A stretch of DNA of 40,285 bases from Deltaproteobacteria bacterium. Lineage in GTDB: Bacteria > Desulfobacterota > Anaeroferrophillalia > Anaeroferrophillales > Tharpellaceae. The stretch is from positions 1-40,285 of the forward strand of contig JAFGVI010000120.1 of the NCBI GenBank assembly GCA_016938065.1, read 5' to 3'. The position numbers and the translations under genes were made by a program. Below are positions 17,467 to 27,136 of this stretch, one piece after another. A model generated the notes under the pieces. It ran no database searches. It worked only from the letters and a program-made list of their open reading frames with translations, and was not told where the DNA came from. Positions within the stretch are counted from its first letter, which is position 1; every line of letters begins with the position of its first letter.

Positions 17467-17895
17467 TTACAGATCCCACTCATCGGCCAGAGGGTTTTGC
17501 CCGCGACTCTGCAGGGCACCGTCGTACTCACGGACAGTCTGAGCAAAAAGGCGGCCTTCACTGGCACTGATCCAGCGCAGCCAGACCCGTTCCTGATCCA
17601 GCCCCAGGGTCTCCATGACCGAGCGCAGCAGGGCGATGCGCCGCCGCGCCTTGAGATTCCCGGTCTGATAGTGACAGTCACCGGGATGACAACCGCCGAT
17701 CAAAACGCCATCAGCCCCGTCCAGCAGGGATTTAAGCACATAAACAACATCAATCGCTCCGGAACACATCAGGTGAATAATCCGGATGCCGGCCGGATAC
17801 TGCTGCCGGGTAGTACCGGCCAGATCAGCTCCGGTATAAGTACACCAATGGCATAAAAAACCGACAATTCTTGGTTCAAATTTTGAGTCAGACAT
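17467..17895 (-). CDS. mvhD: MvhD-type [2Fe-2S] electron adaptor of Hdr complexes
   Basis: The 142-residue protein matches the hydrogenase delta subunit family (MvhD, also FlxD). It shows VGFLCHWCTYTGADLAG at the N-terminus, IRIIHLMCSGAID in the middle, and GVLIGGCHPGDCHYQTGN. These Cys ligate a [2Fe-2S] cluster that hands electrons from a hydrogenase, formate dehydrogenase or NADH module to HdrA. It lies between the fused hdrA3 and the FdhB-like gene, which is where a wire between an input subunit and HdrA would be expected. An AGGAACG site precedes the ATG. Confidence 0.92.
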   Translation of the reverse strand: MSDSKFEPRIVGFLCHWCTYTGADLAGTTRQQYPAGIRIIHLMCSGAIDVVYVLKSLLDGADGVLIGGCHPGDCHYQTGNLKARRRIALLRSVMETLGLDQERVWLRWISASEGRLFAQTVREYDGALQSRGQNPLADEWDL

Positions 17896-17943: not shown

Positions 17944-20900
17944 CTATCGCATCAACTGAGTGCTGACAGCCATCATCTGGCCTTTATCAAAACCGAGCTG
18001 CTGGGTGGCGCCGTTAGGACAGACCGCAGCACAGCTGCCGCAACCGTGACAGAGATCATAATGAACCTCAGCAATCATCGAACTTAAATTAATCTCCCGC
18101 GCGCCGTAAGGACAGGCCTCGACACAAAGACCGCAACCGCTGCAGAGCCGGCTGCTGACGATAACGGCACTCTTGGCCGCCACGATCTTATTTTTCCCGA
18201 GTACCGTTGCCGCCCGCGAAGCCGCCGCCCGGGAGCGAATCAGGGTCTCTTTAAAATGCAGCGGCGCTGAAGCCAGTCCACAGTGATAGCGACCTTCGCC
18301 GACAAAATCAACCAGAGCGGCCTTGCTGTTGGCTTCAGCAAAGAAACCGTACTCATCCAGGGGCAGAGAAAAAATCTCAGCCAGCCCTTTAACATCCACA
18401 GGCTCGACCCCGGTACTTAAAACCAGCAGATCAGGATTTAAGGTTCGCTCTTTCTTAAGAATCTGATCATAATATTTAAGGCTTAAACCCGAACCCGCGT
18501 CAGAGGCTTCGGGTTTGCGTTCAACGTCATAGGGGGAAAAGATAATCCCCTGCGCCCGGGCCTGACGATAGTAATCTTCAAACAGGCCGTAGGCGCGCAG
18601 ATCACGGTAAAGCACCGTAATTCTGCAGGCGGGCGCAGCCGCTTTGAGGCGCAGCGAATTCTTCAGGGCTTGAGTACAGCAGACCCGGCTGCAATATTCA
18701 CGCTTGCCGGCTTCACGGGAGCCGACGCATTGAATCATCACGACTTCGCGACAGCTCTTTAAGGACTCCGGCGCCTGCGCCAGGCGCTCTTCAAGTTCAA
18801 CCTGGGTCAGAACCTTTGCATTCTGACCTTTGAGATATTCTTCGGTTGCCGCTTCCCGACCACCGGTGGCCAGGAGCAGAACCCCATGTTTAATCTGCTG
18901 CTCGACCTCATCCTGACGCACCAGCGTCAGGTAATTGCCGACCCGGCCCTGATGCTTGATGATCTCAGTCTGTAAAAGAACCTCGATATTACTCTCCGCC
19001 GCTACCGCCGCGAGCAACTTCTCCAGTAACCGGGCCGGCTGTGACCCCTCCAGGGTGTAATGCGCCTGCAGCAGACGCCCGCCCAGCCGCGCCTCTTTTT
19101 CCACCAGACTCACCTGATAACCCCGCGCCGCCAGGGAAAGGGCAGCGCTTAGTCCTGCCGCTCCGCCCCCGACAACCAGAGCCCGGGGCTCGACCGGGAC
19201 CGCCGCCACAGCTGGAGCCGGAAGATTGCGGAATATTTTTGTCAGGGCCGCCTGGAGCAGAGCCCGCGCCTTGCCCTGCACAACTTCGTCAGCGCCCTGA
19301 TGGGGAAAGAGGCACTGCTCGCGCAGATTGACCACCGTAAAAGCGTTGCGGTTAAATCCGATGCTATCGGCAAACTTGTCTAAGGAACGTTCCAGATCGC
19401 GAACCGAACAGGCCCCGATAACTATCCGGTTAAGTTCATGCTGGCCGATGAATTTACGCAGGCCGAGCAGGCCGTCGGGGGTACAACTGTCATCGACCAC
19501 CTCAACGCAGGCGACATAGGGCTCTTTTTCAAGTTCACGGCAAAGCCCCTCAAGATTCAGATCAGCACTCATAGTCCCGGCGCAGGAACAGAGAAAAACC
19601 CCGATACAAGGCTCTTCAATCCAGACTTCGCCCTCCTGCGGTTTCAAAGCAGCCGTTGAAACAGGGCTGGCAGAAAAACTCGTTACCAGCTCCGCCGCCG
19701 CCAGGGAAACAACCACGGCATCAGCCGCGGCGGCCGCTTCCATGACCGTCTCGGGAATATCCTTGGGCCCGCAGAAAGCCCCGGCGGCAAAGAGGCCGGG
19801 CACCGAGGTCAAGGTCGGAGCAAACTCTTCAGTCCGGCAGAACCCATATTCATCCAGTGCCAGACCGACCTCAGCAGCAAAATCGAGCTGGGGCGCGTCA
19901 AAACCCAGGGATAAGACCACCAGATCAACCGTATCCGTTGAAAAACCCGCGCCATCATCATAGATGAGATTGAGCTTACGGGTTTTCGGATCTTCCTTGA
20001 CCGTGGAGACCATCGAACGCCGATACTCTACCGCATATTCATTGCGGGCCTGATTGAAATACTTTTCGTAACCCTTGCCCATGCCGCGCAGATCCATGTA
20101 GTAGATCACGACCTCGGTTTGCGGAGCCCTTTCGCGGATGAACATCGCCTGTTTGGTCGCATACATGCAGCAGACCGCCGAACAGTAACCGCGGCCACAG
20201 GAAAGATCACGGGAACCGACACATTGAATAAAGGCAACCCTTTGCGGGGTATTACCGGCAGCCGGAGCCAGCGGCAGCCCCTGACTCGGGCCGGAAAAAC
20301 TGATCATGCGCTCAAGCTGACGGCTGCTTACCACATTTTTATAGCGGCCAAAGCCATATTCGCCTTTAAGACCGCCAGCCACCAAGGAAAAACCCGGGGT
20401 CAGAAGTACCGCGTCCGCGCTGAGTTCTTCGGTAAGAGCATCCCTGGCTTCGAGATCAATCGCCTGCGTCGGACAGGCGGTCACACAGGCACCGCACTTT
20501 GTACAGCTGGCAAAGTCAACCCGGTAGCCGGCCTTGACCATTTTGGGATAAAGTTTATAAACCGCCTTGCGCTCTTCCAGACCATCGCTGAACTCATAAG
20601 GAACCGTCACCGGGCAGACTTCGGCACACCTGCCGCAATCGATACATTTCGCCTGATCGACCCCTTGAGGCGCAACCGCAAGGGTCAGACTGAAATTTCC
20701 CGGACTCCCCTTTAAAGCCAGCGGCCGGCTGCCAACCCTGATCTCAAGGTTTTCATGCAGACGGCATTCGACAAAGGGACAATAGGCCGGCTGTTGCGGA
20801 GAGAGAAAACAGACACCGCAGGAGTTGGTCGGAAAGGTATTATCGAGCAACGGGAAAAAACCGCCGATGGCCACCTCTTTTTCGACCAGAGTCACACTCA

Positions 20901-21021
20901 GCCCTTGTTCAGCCAGCTGCAAAGCCGCGGTCATCCCGGCAAAGCCCCCGCCGATGACGGCGACCTTCTTCTTTTTATCCATTATATTATTTTCTTTATT
21001 TTCAGGGGACATAATATTCAA
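17944..21021 (-). CDS. hdrA: Fused double HdrA flavoprotein (HdrA3)
   Basis: At 1025 residues it is far longer than ordinary HdrA (about 650). The first half (19-450) has an FAD site VAVIGGGFAGMTAAL, Cys at 68, 71, 81 and 86 after TFPTNSC, and an inserted ferredoxin (CIDCGRCAEVCP, CTKCGACVTACP, 126-184). A Cys-containing HdrA N-terminal-type domain follows (470-600). A second FAD domain (ALVVGGGAAGLSAAL, 614-945) has no inserted ferredoxin or Cys motif. A C-terminal two-cluster ferredoxin closes the protein (CSGCGLCVEACP and CHGCGSCAAVCP, 960-1001). It is therefore an HdrA1-like and an HdrA2-like protein joined in the order of the neighbouring separate genes. The frame can begin at a TTG overlapping hdrB2 (21021) or at ATGs at 21012 or 20982; the last lies just before the FAD motif. 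Its likely role is flavin-based electron bifurcation. Confidence 0.93.
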   Translation of the reverse strand: MNIMSPENKENNIMDKKKKVAVIGGGFAGMTAALQLAEQGLSVTLVEKEVAIGGFFPLLDNTFPTNSCGVCFLSPQQPAYCPFVECRLHENLEIRVGSRPLALKGSPGNFSLTLAVAPQGVDQAKCIDCGRCAEVCPVTVPYEFSDGLEERKAVYKLYPKMVKAGYRVDFASCTKCGACVTACPTQAIDLEARDALTEELSADAVLLTPGFSLVAGGLKGEYGFGRYKNVVSSRQLERMISFSGPSQGLPLAPAAGNTPQRVAFIQCVGSRDLSCGRGYCSAVCCMYATKQAMFIRERAPQTEVVIYYMDLRGMGKGYEKYFNQARNEYAVEYRRSMVSTVKEDPKTRKLNLIYDDGAGFSTDTVDLVVLSLGFDAPQLDFAAEVGLALDEYGFCRTEEFAPTLTSVPGLFAAGAFCGPKDIPETVMEAAAAADAVVVSLAAAELVTSFSASPVSTAALKPQEGEVWIEEPCIGVFLCSCAGTMSADLNLEGLCRELEKEPYVACVEVVDDSCTPDGLLGLRKFIGQHELNRIVIGACSVRDLERSLDKFADSIGFNRNAFTVVNLREQCLFPHQGADEVVQGKARALLQAALTKIFRNLPAPAVAAVPVEPRALVVGGGAAGLSAALSLAARGYQVSLVEKEARLGGRLLQAHYTLEGSQPARLLEKLLAAVAAESNIEVLLQTEIIKHQGRVGNYLTLVRQDEVEQQIKHGVLLLATGGREAATEEYLKGQNAKVLTQVELEERLAQAPESLKSCREVVMIQCVGSREAGKREYCSRVCCTQALKNSLRLKAAAPACRITVLYRDLRAYGLFEDYYRQARAQGIIFSPYDVERKPEASDAGSGLSLKYYDQILKKERTLNPDLLVLSTGVEPVDVKGLAEIFSLPLDEYGFFAEANSKAALVDFVGEGRYHCGLASAPLHFKETLIRSRAAASRAATVLGKNKIVAAKSAVIVSSRLCSGCGLCVEACPYGAREINLSSMIAEVHYDLCHGCGSCAAVCPNGATQQLGFDKGQMMAVSTQLMR

Positions 21022-21845
21022 AAAAGTTTCGACGGATCGTTAAAATGTTTCTTCCACCAGCGTTGCCGGTCACCAATCTGCAAAGCTTCAGCCATCAGTT
21101 CGGTAAAATAGAGAATCGGCAGGCGCTGCTGGCGAATATCGACATTGGCCTGGCACAAGGCGCAGGAGGTAACCAGACAATCAGCCTCGGCCGCAACCGC
21201 GTAATCGACGATCTTATTAACCAGTTCCGTCGTCTTTTCCGCATCCGTCAGACCGAGATCGCCGCCGCAGCAGTCGACTTTACAGGACCAGTCGCTGACT
21301 TCGGCCCCGAGATCGGCCATCAGGCTATCGATGCGCAGCGGATTTTCAGCATTATCAACCCCGGTGATCGCCGCCGGCCGCACGATCGCGCAGCCGTAAT
21401 AACAGACGACATTCAGCCCCTGCAGCGGTTTTCTGACCAGGGCCTTGATCGCTGGGCGCAACTCGGGAAGAGCTAACAGGTCGACCAGAGAAAGCATTCT
21501 GATCTTTTCATCATATTTGAAGTCAAGTTGCTTTTCCAGACGCCGGCGCTCCTTAGGATCGTGACGCAAAACATAATCAGCCTGGGCCAGATTACCATAA
21601 CAGCCGGCACAGGGAATCACCATATCGGACCCTTTCTTATGAGCCTCACCCACATTGAAAGCTGATAGTCCCAGAGCCAGAGAGCTCGAAAGATTATGTG
21701 CTGATGCCGCTCCGCAGCAGCACCAATCCGGCAGTTCTTTAAGTTCGATACCCAGCGCGGCAATTACCGCCAGACTGGCTTCGATATACTCAATCGCGGT
21801 TGAATGCGAGGTGCAGCCGGGATAGTATGAAAAAGTTTTCCCCAT
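21018..21845 (-). CDS. hdrB: Heterodisulfide reductase-like subunit B (HdrB2)
   Basis: The 275-residue protein has two complete CCG domains. The first runs YYPGCTSHS, WCCCGAAS and CAGC; the second runs CYYGCAIVRP, VDCCGGDLG and CALCQAN. In methanogen HdrB such motifs hold the noncubane [4Fe-4S] clusters that split a disulfide. In bacteria the substrate is unknown, or the subunit acts as a relay. Both halves keep all expected Cys, so cluster binding is likely. It lies between hdrC2 (14 bases upstream) and hdrA3 (4-base overlap if the TTG start is used). Confidence 0.93.
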   Translation of the reverse strand: MGKTFSYYPGCTSHSTAIEYIEASLAVIAALGIELKELPDWCCCGAASAHNLSSSLALGLSAFNVGEAHKKGSDMVIPCAGCYGNLAQADYVLRHDPKERRRLEKQLDFKYDEKIRMLSLVDLLALPELRPAIKALVRKPLQGLNVVCYYGCAIVRPAAITGVDNAENPLRIDSLMADLGAEVSDWSCKVDCCGGDLGLTDAEKTTELVNKIVDYAVAAEADCLVTSCALCQANVDIRQQRLPILYFTELMAEALQIGDRQRWWKKHFNDPSKLF

Positions 21846-21859
21846 CGTTTAATGTTCCC

Positions 21860-22384
21860 TCATTTACCGGCTTCTTGGAAAATTTCCTTGATCTTGGCCA
21901 TATTTTTGCTTTTTTTCGGCATAATCGGAATCTTGCCTTTAAGGAAAAGCTTCAAGCCGACATCAAGATCAGAGGTAAAATTCTTACTTTTCCACTTATA
22001 GGTCATGAGCATGGTGGCCTCATGCACCCGACCGAAAGTTTTAATACTTTCGATAAAAGATGTATGCAGAGCCACGGTCACGGGATCGGCCGGGGTAATT
22101 CCTTCGTTCAGACATTGGGCCCGCAAAGCATCCATAACCGGAGCAATCCTGATCTCATTGGGACAGCGGCTGCCGCAGGTTTCGCAGGAGACGCACATCC
22201 AGATCGCCTTACTCTTAAGCAGCTCGTCCTTCATGCCGAGCTGCACCATACGCATGACCATGTTGGGCGGAAAATCGAACTCCTCGACCATCGGACAACC
22301 GGCACTGCATTTGCGACACTGATAGCAGAGAGCAATCGCCTGCCCGCTCTCGCTCGTGACTTTATCTAAAAGATTTTCACTCAT
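21860..22384 (-). CDS. hdrC: Heterodisulfide reductase-like subunit C (HdrC2)
   Basis: The 174-residue protein has two [4Fe-4S] motifs, CYQCRKCSAGCP (about residue 20) and CVSCETCGSRCP (about 65), typical of HdrC, which carries electrons from HdrA to HdrB. Its C-terminal tail of about 60 residues, rich in Lys, is longer than that of the other HdrC in this operon (138 residues). It starts 5 bases after the hdrA2 stop codon without a strong ribosome site, so it is probably translationally coupled. Confidence 0.93.
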   Translation of the reverse strand: MSENLLDKVTSESGQAIALCYQCRKCSAGCPMVEEFDFPPNMVMRMVQLGMKDELLKSKAIWMCVSCETCGSRCPNEIRIAPVMDALRAQCLNEGITPADPVTVALHTSFIESIKTFGRVHEATMLMTYKWKSKNFTSDLDVGLKLFLKGKIPIMPKKSKNMAKIKEIFQEAGK

Positions 22385-22389
22385 AGTTA

Positions 22390-24378
22390 TTATACCGCCT
22401 CGGCTTTGCCGGCAAAGTCACCGATCATCCGGATAAATTGACGGGAGGTAGAGTTGATCAGTTCACAGGCCTTGTTCGGACAAGCGGCAATACAGGCACC
22501 GCAACCCTGACAGACAGCCTGGTTGACATCGGAGATCCGCGTAAAATTATTCATCAGCCGAGCCCCGTAGGGACATATTTCAATACAGATACCGCAACCA
22601 CTGCAGACGTCACTCTTGACCTCGGCAATCAGGGGATCGGCAATCAGGGTTTCGTTGGAGAACATCAGCTGGATTTTACCGGCGGTGGCTAAAGCCTGCG
22701 AAACCGTGTCGGTAATATCTTTGGGCGACTGCCCGCAGCCGGCCAGATAAACCCCTTTGGTCGAACTCTCAACCGGATAGAGCTTGATATGGGTCTCGGA
22801 GAGAAAAGCGTCGCCGTCAATGGTCACATTCATCTTTTTGGCCAGTTCGCGGGTACCGGCTTTGGGCTCCATGGCCATGGCCAGCACTACAAGATCAGCC
22901 TCAATCTCCATCTGCCGGCTGCTTAAGGTGTCTGCAGTGAAAACCCTGAGATAATCACCTTCAGCAATCACCTTGGCCACCCGGCCGCGAATATAGACGA
23001 GATTCTCCTGCTCCATGCCCTGCTGTACAAACTCTTCAAAACCACGGCTGTCGGAACGAATATCCATATAGGAAATGTAAGCCGTCCCGTCCTTGACCTG
23101 CTGCCGATAGAGCCGCGCCTGTTTCGCCGTATACATACAGCAGGCCCGGGAACAGTAGGCTTTATGCCGTTCCGGATCACGCGAGCCAACACACTGAATA
23201 AAGACCACATGTTTCGGAACCCGGCCGTCCGAGGGGCGAACCACCTGACCGCCGGTGGGGCCGCTGGGGTCAAGCAGGCGTTCGAAGGCCAGAGCGTCGA
23301 TGACATCGGGCAGCTGCCCGGCCCCATACTCCGGCATCTTCAACGGACTGTAGAGATCATAACCGGTCGCCATGACGATGGCACCGACAAATTCGTCATT
23401 AAGGGTGCGAATGCTGTCGAGATCAATCGCCTGTTCCGGACAGATGTCGGCACAGGCCCGACAGCTTGTCGCATCGGCAACCTCAGCCGCACTGAAATAG
23501 AGACAATCTGACTGCATAAGCACCGGAATCCGCGCAGCTTCCGTTTGATTGTAGCGAAAGATCGCGCCCCGCCGGCTTAAACCACGATTGAATTCATCGG
23601 CGACACTGACCGGGCAGACCTCAAGACATTTACCACAGGCCGTACATTTGGCCGGATCGACAAAAGCCGGCTGTGTCCGGATCGTCACATTAAAATTGCC
23701 GACATAGCCCTCAAGCACATCAACTTCGGAGTTGAGATAGAGCTTGATCCTGGGATTGGCGTTAACTTCTTCAATCTTTTTCTGCAGAAGCTGCGGAACA
23801 TTCTGAAAAAAGGGAAAAGTCTGACTGATCTGGGCCATGTGGCCGCCAATCGCCGGCTCCTTTTCAATGATGGCAACCTCATAACCGGCATTGGCCAGAT
23901 CAAGCGCCGACATGATACCGGCAATACCGCCGCCGACGACACAGACCCGCTTGGTCAGATCGATGGTAATCGTCTCTAGAGGAAGGTTCTCTTTGACCTT
24001 GTCCAGGGTTCCCTCAATAATACTGACCGCCTTGGCGGTGGCCAGGGGTTTATTGTTCTGATGCACCCAGCTGCACTGTTCGCGGATATTGGCAATTTCG
24101 AGGAGATAGGAGTTCAAACCGACGGAGCCGGCCGCTTTACGGAAGGTGTTTTCGTGCATCCGGGGCGAACAGCAGGCCACAACTACCCCGTCCAGACCCT
24201 TTTCCGAAATCGTATCCTTAACCTTCTGCTGGCCCGGATCCGAGCACATATACATGTAGTTTTCGGCATGGACCACCCCGTCCAGTTTTTTCGCCTCAGC
24301 TACAGCCTTATCAACATCAACACTGCTGGCAATATTGGAGCCGCACCAGCAGATGAATACTCCGAGTTTCTTTTCCAT
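22390..24378 (-). CDS. hdrA: HdrA-like flavoprotein, full-length (HdrA2), lacking the conserved Cys motif
   Basis: The 662-residue protein has the full HdrA plan. An N-terminal domain (1-145: VFICWCGSNI, ACCSPRMHENTF, REQCSWVH) leads to an FAD domain opening VCVVGGGIAGIMSAL. There is an inserted ferredoxin (CTACGKCLEVCP and CRACADICP), QCVGSRDPE with YCSRACCMYTAKQ, and a C-terminal ferredoxin (CSGCGICIEICP, CQGCGACIAACP). After the FAD motif, HdrA normally has FPT-x-DC-xx-C. This protein reads TFPFFQNVPQLLQ with no Cys, in an otherwise intact frame. The short HdrA1 upstream keeps the Cys. The start codon overlaps the hdrA1 stop by one base (TAATG), so the two are made together and may form a heterodimer equivalent to fused HdrA3. 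Confidence 0.93.
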   Translation of the reverse strand: MEKKLGVFICWCGSNIASSVDVDKAVAEAKKLDGVVHAENYMYMCSDPGQQKVKDTISEKGLDGVVVACCSPRMHENTFRKAAGSVGLNSYLLEIANIREQCSWVHQNNKPLATAKAVSIIEGTLDKVKENLPLETITIDLTKRVCVVGGGIAGIMSALDLANAGYEVAIIEKEPAIGGHMAQISQTFPFFQNVPQLLQKKIEEVNANPRIKLYLNSEVDVLEGYVGNFNVTIRTQPAFVDPAKCTACGKCLEVCPVSVADEFNRGLSRRGAIFRYNQTEAARIPVLMQSDCLYFSAAEVADATSCRACADICPEQAIDLDSIRTLNDEFVGAIVMATGYDLYSPLKMPEYGAGQLPDVIDALAFERLLDPSGPTGGQVVRPSDGRVPKHVVFIQCVGSRDPERHKAYCSRACCMYTAKQARLYRQQVKDGTAYISYMDIRSDSRGFEEFVQQGMEQENLVYIRGRVAKVIAEGDYLRVFTADTLSSRQMEIEADLVVLAMAMEPKAGTRELAKKMNVTIDGDAFLSETHIKLYPVESSTKGVYLAGCGQSPKDITDTVSQALATAGKIQLMFSNETLIADPLIAEVKSDVCSGCGICIEICPYGARLMNNFTRISDVNQAVCQGCGACIAACPNKACELINSTSRQFIRMIGDFAGKAEAV

Positions 24379-25793
24379 TAAACGGCTTCCTGATTCTGGC
24401 GTCTCAGTGTAGAGAGAAAGACCAGCGCTTTACTGGCGGCCGCACTGCCCTGGGCAGAGGAGTCCGCAATATCTTTAATGCCCTGACAACAACCAGCGAT
24501 GTAGATTCCCTGACGACCGGTTTCCACCGGTGAGAGTTTATAATTATCTTCGATGAAAAAACCATCCGCATTACATTCAATGCCGAGAATATCCGCCAGT
24601 TCCTGAGCCCCGGCATTGGGCACCATCGCCGCGGCCAGAACCACCATATCGGCGGCGATCTCAATTTTTTTGCCGGTCAGGGTGTCAGCCCCCTGCACCA
24701 TTACCTTGTCTCCTTCGCGGTAGAGTCTGGCGGCCCGGCCGCGAATGTAGATAATCTCTTCTTCGGAGACCGACTGCTGAATAAACTGCTCGTAGCCTTT
24801 ACCGGTCGAACGAATGTCGATATAAAAGACATAGACCTGACCATCGTGGACCTTATGTTTATAAAGCCGGGCGTGTTTGGCAGTATACATGCAGCAGACC
24901 CGGGAACAGTAGGCTTTATGAAACTCAGGATTACGCGAACCGACGCACTGAATGAAAACTATCTCTTTAGGTTCCTTGCCGTCTGAAGGGCGCACCATGG
25001 CGCCGGCGGTCGGCCCCGAGGCAGAAAGATAACGCTCCATGGTCAGGCCGTCGATAACATCGGGAATCTTGCCCCCGCCATATTCCGGCATCTTGTTTTT
25101 CCAGTCGTAGATATCAAAACCGGTTGCGACAATAATGGCACCGACCCGGGCCGCAAAAAAGCTCTCCTGCTGTTTATAATCAATAGCGCCGACCGGACAG
25201 GATTTGGCGCAGACCCCGCACTTGCCTTTAGTCAGATAACGACAGCGGTCGGGATCAATCTGCGGCTTATTGGGTACGGCCTGGGGCGAGAGGGTGTAGA
25301 TCGCCGTCATCCGTCCGGCATCCCGTTCAAACAGGGCAATCCCTTTACTCGGACACTTCTGAATACAGGTACCGCAGCCGGTACACTTGTTCCAGTCGAC
25401 GTAGGTCACTTTCTGCCGCAGCGAAACCGTAAAATCACCGGGTTCGCCCTCAAGCCCGATAACCTCACAACTGGTTTTCAACGTCACCTTGGGATGCTGG
25501 CCGGATTCGACCGTACGCGGCGTCAGGGTGCATTGAGCACAGTCCAGGGTCGGAAAGGTTTCAGAAAGCTGCAGCATACGCCCGCCCACCGAAGGCAACC
25601 GATCAACCAACATCACCTGATACCCGGCATTACCGAGGTCGATAGCCGCCGTAATGCCGGTAATGCCCCCACCAATCACCATTACCCGACGATCGACCGG
25701 CACACTTTCAAACTCAGTGAGATTTCCCAGGGCACAGGCGCAGGTTACCGGTTGACCATCTTTCAAACCTGTCAATTCAACTAATTCACCCAT
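24378..25793 (-). CDS. hdrA: Short HdrA-like flavoprotein (HdrA1)
   Basis: The protein is 471 residues from the ATG at 25793, which follows AAAGG by 8 bases. A TTG one codon earlier is less likely. It lacks the roughly 140-residue HdrA N-terminal domain, keeping only a short leader with CACALG. It has the FAD site RRVMVIGGGITGITAAI, the Cys motif TFPTLDCAQCTLTP, an inserted ferredoxin (CTGCGTCIQKCP and CRYLTKGKCGVCAKSCP) and QCVGSRNPE with YCSRVCCMYTAK. The C-terminal ferredoxin of full HdrA is absent. It matches the first half of the fused HdrA3 in architecture. Its stop overlaps the hdrA2 start by one base. Confidence 0.92.
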   Translation of the reverse strand: MGELVELTGLKDGQPVTCACALGNLTEFESVPVDRRVMVIGGGITGITAAIDLGNAGYQVMLVDRLPSVGGRMLQLSETFPTLDCAQCTLTPRTVESGQHPKVTLKTSCEVIGLEGEPGDFTVSLRQKVTYVDWNKCTGCGTCIQKCPSKGIALFERDAGRMTAIYTLSPQAVPNKPQIDPDRCRYLTKGKCGVCAKSCPVGAIDYKQQESFFAARVGAIIVATGFDIYDWKNKMPEYGGGKIPDVIDGLTMERYLSASGPTAGAMVRPSDGKEPKEIVFIQCVGSRNPEFHKAYCSRVCCMYTAKHARLYKHKVHDGQVYVFYIDIRSTGKGYEQFIQQSVSEEEIIYIRGRAARLYREGDKVMVQGADTLTGKKIEIAADMVVLAAAMVPNAGAQELADILGIECNADGFFIEDNYKLSPVETGRQGIYIAGCCQGIKDIADSSAQGSAAASKALVFLSTLRRQNQEAV

Positions 25794-25808
25794 CAATCAA
25801 GCCTTTAT

Positions 25809-26684
25809 CTAAGACACAATGCCCTTTTCCTTAAGCAGCGGAAGAGGATCAATAAGGTTACGTTCAAAACCCAGCCCGGCAGCCGGCAGATCCAGAGCCA
25901 GAGCCAGCAGCTGCGTAAAGTAAAGAACCGGAATTGCGCTGAAAGCGGTATGACTTTTTTGTATTTCCGGCTGGCGGTCATCCAGATTGAACTGGCACAG
26001 CGGGCAGGTGGTGATGACCAGATCCGCCCCGCTGTTTTTGGCACTGCGCAGAATGTCATGCGAACAGCGGGTGGCGGTAGTCATCGAATGTACCGTCTGA
26101 AAAGCCCCGCAGCATTCGACTTTATAGGGAAACTCAACCGGCTCGGCACCAAGGGCCCGAATGAACTCTTCAAAAATGGTCGGATTTTCCATCGCATCAA
26201 GACCGATCTCCTTGACCGGACGTAAAAGCAGACAACCATAATAACAAGCGACCTTCAGACCGGTCAGAGGCTTGACCACCTTCTCCCGCAACGTATCAAA
26301 ACCGATCTCATCACGTAGAAGCTGCAGATAGTGCAGAACCTCAACTTCACCATGATAGTCACGTTCGATAAAATCGGTAATCTTGGCCCGGCGTTCTTCA
26401 TCGTTACGCATCACATGATTGGTGCGCTTGAGAACATTGAAGCAGACTGAACAGAGGGTTACCAGCTTATCATCCCCCCGGGCTTTGGTATCAGCCAGGA
26501 TCCGGGTCGGCCCCGACATCGCGATATGATAGTCATTGACCAGAGGAAAGGTCGCGCCGCAGCAGGTCCAGTCTTTTAACTCGTCGAGTTCAAAACCGAG
26601 CTTCTGGCTGCATTCACGGCCGGCATCATCGAGCTTTTTTGCTTTGGTATAGAGAGTACATCCGGGGAAATATGGATATTTCAT
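25809..26684 (-). CDS. hdrB: Heterodisulfide reductase-like subunit B (HdrB1)
   Basis: The 291-residue protein has two intact CCG domains. The first runs YFPGCTLYT, WTCCGATF and CSVC; the second runs CYYGCLLLRP, VECCGAFQ and CPLCQFN. It probably binds two noncubane [4Fe-4S] clusters as methanogen HdrB does. It is a diverged paralogue of HdrB2 rather than a copy, with low visible identity outside the motifs and a longer C-terminus. The gene lies 35 bases after hdrC1 and 15 bases before the hdrA1 ATG, giving the order C1-B1-A1-A2. Confidence 0.93.
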   Translation of the reverse strand: MKYPYFPGCTLYTKAKKLDDAGRECSQKLGFELDELKDWTCCGATFPLVNDYHIAMSGPTRILADTKARGDDKLVTLCSVCFNVLKRTNHVMRNDEERRAKITDFIERDYHGEVEVLHYLQLLRDEIGFDTLREKVVKPLTGLKVACYYGCLLLRPVKEIGLDAMENPTIFEEFIRALGAEPVEFPYKVECCGAFQTVHSMTTATRCSHDILRSAKNSGADLVITTCPLCQFNLDDRQPEIQKSHTAFSAIPVLYFTQLLALALDLPAAGLGFERNLIDPLPLLKEKGIVS

Positions 26685-26719
26685 AGTTTACTCTTAATTG
26701 CTTACTTATAATGTTCTAT

Positions 26720-27136
26720 TTAAAGAGGGAGAAACTTACGATAGCCGCTGATCATCGCAATCTGCGGCGCCCGGGCCAGATAATCATCGGAGAAATCGGT
26801 AACATCGATATGCGCTTCAGCCCCGACTTCACGCAGGCGCAGAACCCGTAAAGCCTCCATAATTTTTGAGATATCAACCCCTTTGGGACAACGGGCATGA
26901 CACATCATACAGGCCGCGCAGACCCACATCGACTTACAGCTTTTAACCTCTTCGACCAGACCAAGCTGCAGGTAGCGCACCACCTGACTTGGCAGCAGAT
27001 CCATCTCATCAACCGAAGGGCAGCCGGCGGAACAGTTGCCGCACTGGTAACAGTTAAAGAAATTTTCGCCGCTGATTTCAGCCACTTTACTGACAAAATC
27101 ACCCTTAACCTGGGATCGGGAAATTACGGTTTTCAT
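26720..27136 (-). CDS. hdrC: Heterodisulfide reductase-like subunit C (HdrC1)
   Basis: The 138-residue protein has two [4Fe-4S] motifs, CYQCGNCSAGCP (about residue 30) and CAACMMCHARCP (about 73), spaced as in HdrC. It would carry electrons between HdrA1/A2 and HdrB1. It begins 18 bases after the fumarase beta stop codon, so it links the fumarase pair and the Hdr genes in one transcript. Compared with HdrC2 it lacks the long basic tail. Confidence 0.93.
   Translation of the reverse strand: MKTVISRSQVKGDFVSKVAEISGENFFNCYQCGNCSAGCPSVDEMDLLPSQVVRYLQLGLVEEVKSCKSMWVCAACMMCHARCPKGVDISKIMEALRVLRLREVGAEAHIDVTDFSDDYLARAPQIAMISGYRKFLPL

Follow-up and report, generated by a model that had tools for sequence, protein, structure and literature searches.

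HdrA1 and HdrA2, encoded by adjacent genes in the window (the whole stretch of DNA analyzed here, 40,285 nucleotides long), are very probably the unequal halves of one obligate heterodimer, in which Cys89 of HdrA1 completes the cluster of the N-terminal domain (N-domain) of HdrA2, with HdrA3, encoded nearby, as the fused equivalent. One member of each pair has the N-domain without Cys197 and the other has Cys197 without the N-domain, the two being adjacent (HdrA1-HdrA2) or fused (HdrA3), and related complementary pairs are found in other surveyed genomes. We infer that the window proteins form such a dimer and that the FAD of HdrA1, facing the arm of HdrA2, is the main bifurcating flavin. The genes concerned are as follows:

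17467-17895, minus strand: MvhD/FlpD-type [2Fe-2S] adaptor, downstream of HdrA3 (PF02662, 3.3e-47)
17944-21021, minus strand: HdrA3, 1025 aa, a natural fusion of an HdrA1-like half followed by an HdrA2-like half
19222-19614, minus strand: internal N-domain of HdrA3 (C478, C480, C513, C538), mid-chain, before the Cys-less half
21018-21845, minus strand: HdrB2
21860-22384, minus strand: HdrC2 (with HdrB2, 21018-22384)
22390-24378, minus strand: HdrA2, 662 aa, with N-terminal cluster domain, FAD module, and inserted and C-terminal ferredoxin domains
23959-24378, minus strand: N-terminal cluster domain of HdrA2 (C10, C12, C45, C70, and C102)
24378-25796, minus strand: HdrA1, 472 aa, an FAD/thioredoxin-reductase-like module with an inserted 2x[4Fe-4S] ferredoxin domain
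25809-26684, minus strand: HdrB1
26720-27136, minus strand: HdrC1 (with HdrB1, 25809-27136)

The window proteins show the FAD/thioredoxin-reductase-like fold and HdrA sequence over their length; HdrA2 matches the HdrA of Methanothermococcus thermolithotrophicus (5odc_A) over residues 2-652 (E 9.7e-169) and HdrA1 over residues 26-461 (E 1.5e-121). The cut-off for the methanogen CoB-CoM HdrA equivalog is 1100 bits, whereas with the best NCBIfam model, NF040770, they reach 665, 675 and 461; judged by these scores, they are homologues of the named methanogen equivalogs and not members of them. By domain profiles and alignment, both the N-terminal cluster domain and the C-terminal ferredoxin domain are missing from HdrA1. 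Half 1 of HdrA3 has Cys197 and no N-domain, while half 2 has the N-domain and lacks both Cys197 and the inserted ferredoxin domain.

The residue numbers used for comparison are those of 5odc_A, where the motif reads C194-x-x-C197. Its counterparts in the window are:

19030-19059, minus strand: HdrA3 half 2, YTLEGSQPAR, residues 655-664; Cys loop shortened, position 197 a gap
20809-20838, minus strand: HdrA3 half 1, TFPTNSCGVC, residues 62-71; C68 is position 194 and C71 position 197
23791-23820, minus strand: HdrA2, TFPFFQNVPQ, residues 187-196; N193 and Q196 stand at the places of Cys194 and Cys197
25530-25559, minus strand: HdrA1, TFPTLDCAQC, residues 80-89; C86 is position 194; C89 is position 197 and the ligand proposed to serve HdrA2 in trans

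Positions 194/197 thus read C/C in HdrA1 and in HdrA3 half 1, where both cysteines are invariant across 62 aligned sequences, N/Q in HdrA2 and P/gap in HdrA3 half 2. The initial annotation had noted that HdrA2 and the second half of HdrA3 lack the FPTxDCxxC cysteines, that no frameshift is involved and that the loss falls in the same member of the pair; all of this is borne out, the frame of HdrA2 being open across its 662 aa and the loss recurring in the N-domain-bearing member throughout the survey described below. The ligands of the FAD-proximal [4Fe-4S] cluster (C386, C399, C403 and C404), Lys409 and Glu356 are kept in all four flavin modules of the window, and HdrA2 also keeps the inserted ferredoxin domain.

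In the crystal structure, as described by Chadwick et al. (2022; PMC9012536), Cys197 ligates the N-domain cluster of the other HdrA. Because it serves the partner's cluster, the flavin-site cluster of HdrA2 would not have been lost, contrary to the initial annotation, which had assigned the cysteines to a cluster at their own flavin; the flavin-proximal cluster is intact in every scored module. The statement that only one flavin site keeps the cluster stands loosely, in that the HdrA1-HdrA2 dimer would have one N-domain cluster instead of two, and falls insofar as, according to PMC9012536, the cysteine pair is not an own-flavin cluster set. Our analysis favors completion of the HdrA2 cluster by a ligand from elsewhere, the outcome that the initial annotation had set against its own reading, with HdrA1 as donor. 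In symmetric HdrA dimers, Cys197 of each subunit is lent to the partner's N-domain [4Fe-4S] cluster. Once the N-domain had been lost from HdrA1, Cys197 of HdrA2 would have had no cluster to serve and would have decayed; HdrA1 having no N-domain, the loss of Cys197 from HdrA2 is therefore expected. HdrA2 would have kept its own N-domain, with the missing ligand coming from Cys89 of HdrA1, and in HdrA3 the internal N-domain, which belongs to half 2, would likewise draw on C71 of half 1. The N-domain cluster and the N/C-terminal arm would then each occur once, not twice, in the HdrA1-HdrA2 dimer.

We surveyed 80 loci around relatives of HdrA3, 22 genomes of the class and HdrA2-like matches from 148 genomes of the phylum, the phylum regions being picked among the matches listed. 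To locate modules, we built profile HMMs on the window sequences together with 5odc_A, then rebuilt these once on the matches obtained. The 470 chains were reduced to 275 non-redundant at 90% identity; of these, 20 were set aside, 19 as partial and one, a single chain, because a contig edge truncates it. All 93 fused chains consist of a half with Cys197 and no N-domain followed by a half with the N-domain and no Cys197. Among the single chains, some of which are in fact fused chains truncated where their locus ends (L289 4-2067, L290 6875-8893, L284 5-1867 and L037 5718-8534 are examples), 75 have both the N-domain and Cys197, 40 have Cys197 only and 47 have the N-domain only; no scorable single chain in the survey has neither, the sole such row being the one cut by a contig edge. 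An HdrA gene with Cys197 only adjoins 37 of the 47 N-domain-only singles (within 900 nt, same strand), and the reverse holds for 32/40; those of either class that lack such a neighbor lie mostly at locus edges. By the same distance and strand, 65 of the 75 singles with both features have no HdrA neighbor. Since 47 single N-domain chains and 93/93 fused second halves are without Cys197, the comparison argues that its loss from HdrA2 is neither chance nor a private mutation. The N-domain cysteines C10, C12, C45 and C70 are kept in 47/47 N-domain-only singles and in 88/93 fused chains. In the remaining five fused HdrA3-like chains (L024, L036, L037, L038 and L040), two or three of the four are gone and yet Cys197 is kept in half 1, which counts against the sharing of a cluster. 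So does the count of ligands, because the N-domain has four conserved cysteines and needs no fifth.

In the DISCRIMINATING test, the N-domain in one tandem member was set against Cys/Sec197 in the other. Across 34 non-redundant tandem pairs both were present in 36 comparisons, neither in 31, Cys without the N-domain in one and the N-domain without Cys in none. Four pairs (L285, L148, L149 and L152) were left out because their second member is either a separate unit or a fused gene truncated at the end of the locus; the N-domain in one member then predicts Cys/Sec197 in the other in 60/60 comparisons (30 pairs). The loss is complementary in 28 of these pairs. The exceptions, L172 (3565-7344) and L283 (3535-7485), have N-domains and residue 197 in both members; their HdrA2-like member keeps 197 (SGTFPTLDRPACL and SGVSPYHQSPECL) with R or S at 194, and the C-terminal ferredoxin domain is already gone from their HdrA1-like member. 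Both pairs are likely, on their domain content, to be half-way states, and they suggest an order of events in the breaking of symmetry. Moreover, they keep 197 while the partner still has an N-domain, and therefore a ligand acting in trans fits, whereas a role of the motif in cis predicts nothing similar.

In a tree of 119 modules, built with the loop columns removed, the members of the L023 pair and of the L175 pair are each sisters (SH-aLRT 97 and 94), away from the fused lineage; HdrA1 and HdrA2 of the window fall with the L172 pair inside a 12-row set (97), and the fused halves lie elsewhere. Because the sister pairs L023 and L175 stand apart from the fused halves, complementary loss has probably had more than one origin, although gene conversion between neighbors could also produce sister-like pairs. 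The tree affords only 4 to 6 independent contrasts, a number at which the sign test has no power.

The AlphaFold2 model of HdrA3, made with 61 relatives, is confident overall (pLDDT 87.1, pTM 0.87). Its half 1 superposes on HdrA residues 151-576 (8rwn_A, Z 48.3, 1.7 Å over 417 residues), and its N-domain with half 2 on residues 11-654 (8rvy_A, Z 43.0, 3.0 Å over 550). In half 2 a confidently predicted helix, 662-675, takes the place of the lost motif; the Cys loop of half 1 is mostly below pLDDT 50, which counts against the shared-cluster explanation. HdrA2 modeled alone gave a middling prediction (pLDDT 75.5, pTM 0.72), with a helix at 194-207 over the lost motif after a low-confidence turn at 184-192.

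That the FPTxDCxxC cysteines form a cluster at their own flavin, so that HdrA2 and half 2 of HdrA3 would have lost a flavin-site cluster and kept their flavin as a relay, is in our judgment unlikely. The reading draws on the loss being confined to one and the same member, together with signs of decay in that member: Lys409 is lost in 10/93 fused second halves and 2/47 N-domain-only singles and in 0/208 Cys/Sec197 modules; Glu356 is aligned in 74/93, 47/47 and 206/208, respectively, the losses being an upper bound since a one-column misalignment may affect some 'ELGE' rows; and the inserted ferredoxin domain occurs in 0/93 fused second halves. Yet HdrA2 itself retains Lys409, Glu356 and the inserted domain, no scored module lacks the flavin-proximal HA4 ligands, and the retention of 197 in L172 and L283, beside a partner that has kept its N-domain, is left unaccounted for, as is the placement of Cys197 on the partner's cluster in the published structure (PMC9012536).

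The role of Cys197 as a ligand reported there also weighs against a redox-active thiol pair formed by Cys194 and Cys197 (thioredoxin-reductase-like, sometimes Cys/Sec) in one subunit only, with dithiol chemistry lost from HdrA2. The HdrA2-like members of L172 and L283 keep 197 alone and have lost 194, which would break a dithiol, and retention of 197 follows the partner's N-domain. Selenocysteine is a frequent mark of redox-active thiols, and its presence at 197 (7/93 fused first halves, 19/75 singles with both features and 4/40 with Cys197 only) speaks for the pair; even so, we think this explanation very improbable. Least credible of all, and close to negligible, is mere decay of the loop in a redundant paralogue: HdrA2-type modules are slightly less conserved than HdrA1-type modules (mean pairwise identity 53.6 versus 56.2%), but every other scored ligand is kept in HdrA2, the N-domain cysteines persist in every HdrA2-type single and the fused halves evolve at about equal rates (50.3 versus 49.1%). 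The trans-ligand heterodimer is the explanation that we retain.

Whether the two flavins of such a heterodimer do different jobs, such as the bifurcating and relay roles that the initial annotation had proposed, is a related question. Different jobs are plausible, because only HdrA2 has the N/C-terminal arm and because nearly all decay of the bifurcation residues is in N-domain modules. According to PMC12350162, the N- and C-terminal domains of HdrA form a mobile arm that acts on the partner's FAD and inserted ferredoxin domain; the arm of HdrA2, the sole one in the HdrA1-HdrA2 dimer, would therefore face the flavin of HdrA1. Tentatively, and with rather more doubt than confidence, we consider a half-of-the-sites bifurcase, in which the Cys197 module (HdrA1, or half 1 of HdrA3) would hold the only flavin that works in bifurcation, with the arm of the other member acting on it in trans, and the second flavin would be freed for another job or be turning vestigial. 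On this view, symmetric dimers would have given rise to such a state on several occasions: one copy would first have lost its arm and the other then its trans cysteine, and L172 and L283 would be pairs caught half-way. Against this model, the fused halves are about equally conserved, relaxed constraint on the second flavin module not being found in the comparison of their mean identities, and HdrA2 of the window keeps both bifurcation residues and the inserted domain. Moreover, PMC12054007 reads type II HdrA as possibly bifurcating twice, with both flavins able to do so, whereas in our survey the decay of bifurcation residues is almost confined to the N-domain half.

The complementary arrangement itself is already known. 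PMC9012536 describes the N-domain and Cys197 as divided between partners in the ANME tandems HdrA5/6 and HdrA12/13, in the fused ANME HdrA3/4 and in the fused HdrA of the Moorella MetFV-HdrABC-MvhD complex, and proposes a heterodimer for such partners; to these archaeal and Moorella cases the window adds a bacterial example. Unlike them, it is a Desulfobacterota-like operon with two units side by side, the tandem HdrA1-HdrA2 and the fused HdrA3. The order of fusion may also differ: the Cys197 half comes first in all 93 surveyed chains, none of which is archaeal, and the text of PMC9012536 places the N-domain half first in ANME HdrA3/4. The HdrA of the M. thermolithotrophicus HdrABC-MvhAGD complex (5odc) shares domains, HA4 ligands, Lys409 and Glu356 with the window proteins; it is, however, a symmetric homodimer with the N-domain and Cys197 in each chain (PMC9012536). 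In the classification of PMC12054007, the domain losses of archaeal type I class A6 match those of HdrA1, archaeal type II (A3/A4), with two flavin modules, matches HdrA3, and type I class A12 is also among the closest known kinds; the N-terminal half of type II fusions is said there to derive from class A6, which lacks the N-domain, in contrast to the order given in PMC9012536. In searches of the open-licence literature, HdrA and Cys197 were found together only in PMC9012536, and no earlier report of half-way pairs or of one-sided decay of Lys409 was found. What looked like the loss of a cluster becomes a rule for reading sequences: any HdrA that lacks Cys/Sec197 depends on a partner, and sequence suffices to name it. 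An asymmetric dimer also lets the two flavins be tested separately, which a symmetric one does not.

A third case occurs in the same genome, where a fused HdrA is broken over contigs C33 (end) and C125 (start). Its second half lacks the motif; its first half reads FPTNDCSM followed by an in-frame TGA at position 197, which probably encodes selenocysteine. The surrounding genes encode an aldehyde:ferredoxin-oxidoreductase-like protein, HdrB/C-like and NuoEFG-like proteins and the fused HdrA; the cluster, also found in L006, L010 and L011, resembles class II benzoyl-CoA reductase (Bam) loci. Position 197 is a TGA, probably selenocysteine, in 30/208 Cys/Sec197 modules (for example L072 14833, L206 3461 and L226 443), and in PDB 9sfi_A it is an unnamed residue, X. 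Three fused HdrAs of about 1470-1500 aa (L046 1812-6257, L040 4157-8575 and L082 4859-9361) have a further, flavoprotein-like insert that follows the inserted ferredoxin domain, akin to the NfnB-bearing HdrA of ANME-1 (PMC9012536).

HdrBC-like and MvhD genes accompany the HdrAs of the window, and electron bifurcation by the complex is putative. Positions 11473-31779 (minus strand) form a single conserved gene run, comprising NuoE-NuoF-NuoG-like genes, alpha and beta subunit genes of a presumed fumarase, HdrC1-B1-A1-A2-C2-B2-A3, MvhD, an FrhB/FdhB_C-type Fe-S protein, a Fer4 protein, a TfrA-like fumarate reductase/succinate dehydrogenase flavoprotein, SucC and SucD. In gene content the run resembles a soluble fumarate reductase or succinate dehydrogenase linked to Hdr, through which NADH, ferredoxin and fumarate could be coupled. 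From fumarase to SucD, the same gene order recurs in L018, L021 and L026 (Syntrophaceae) and in L038.
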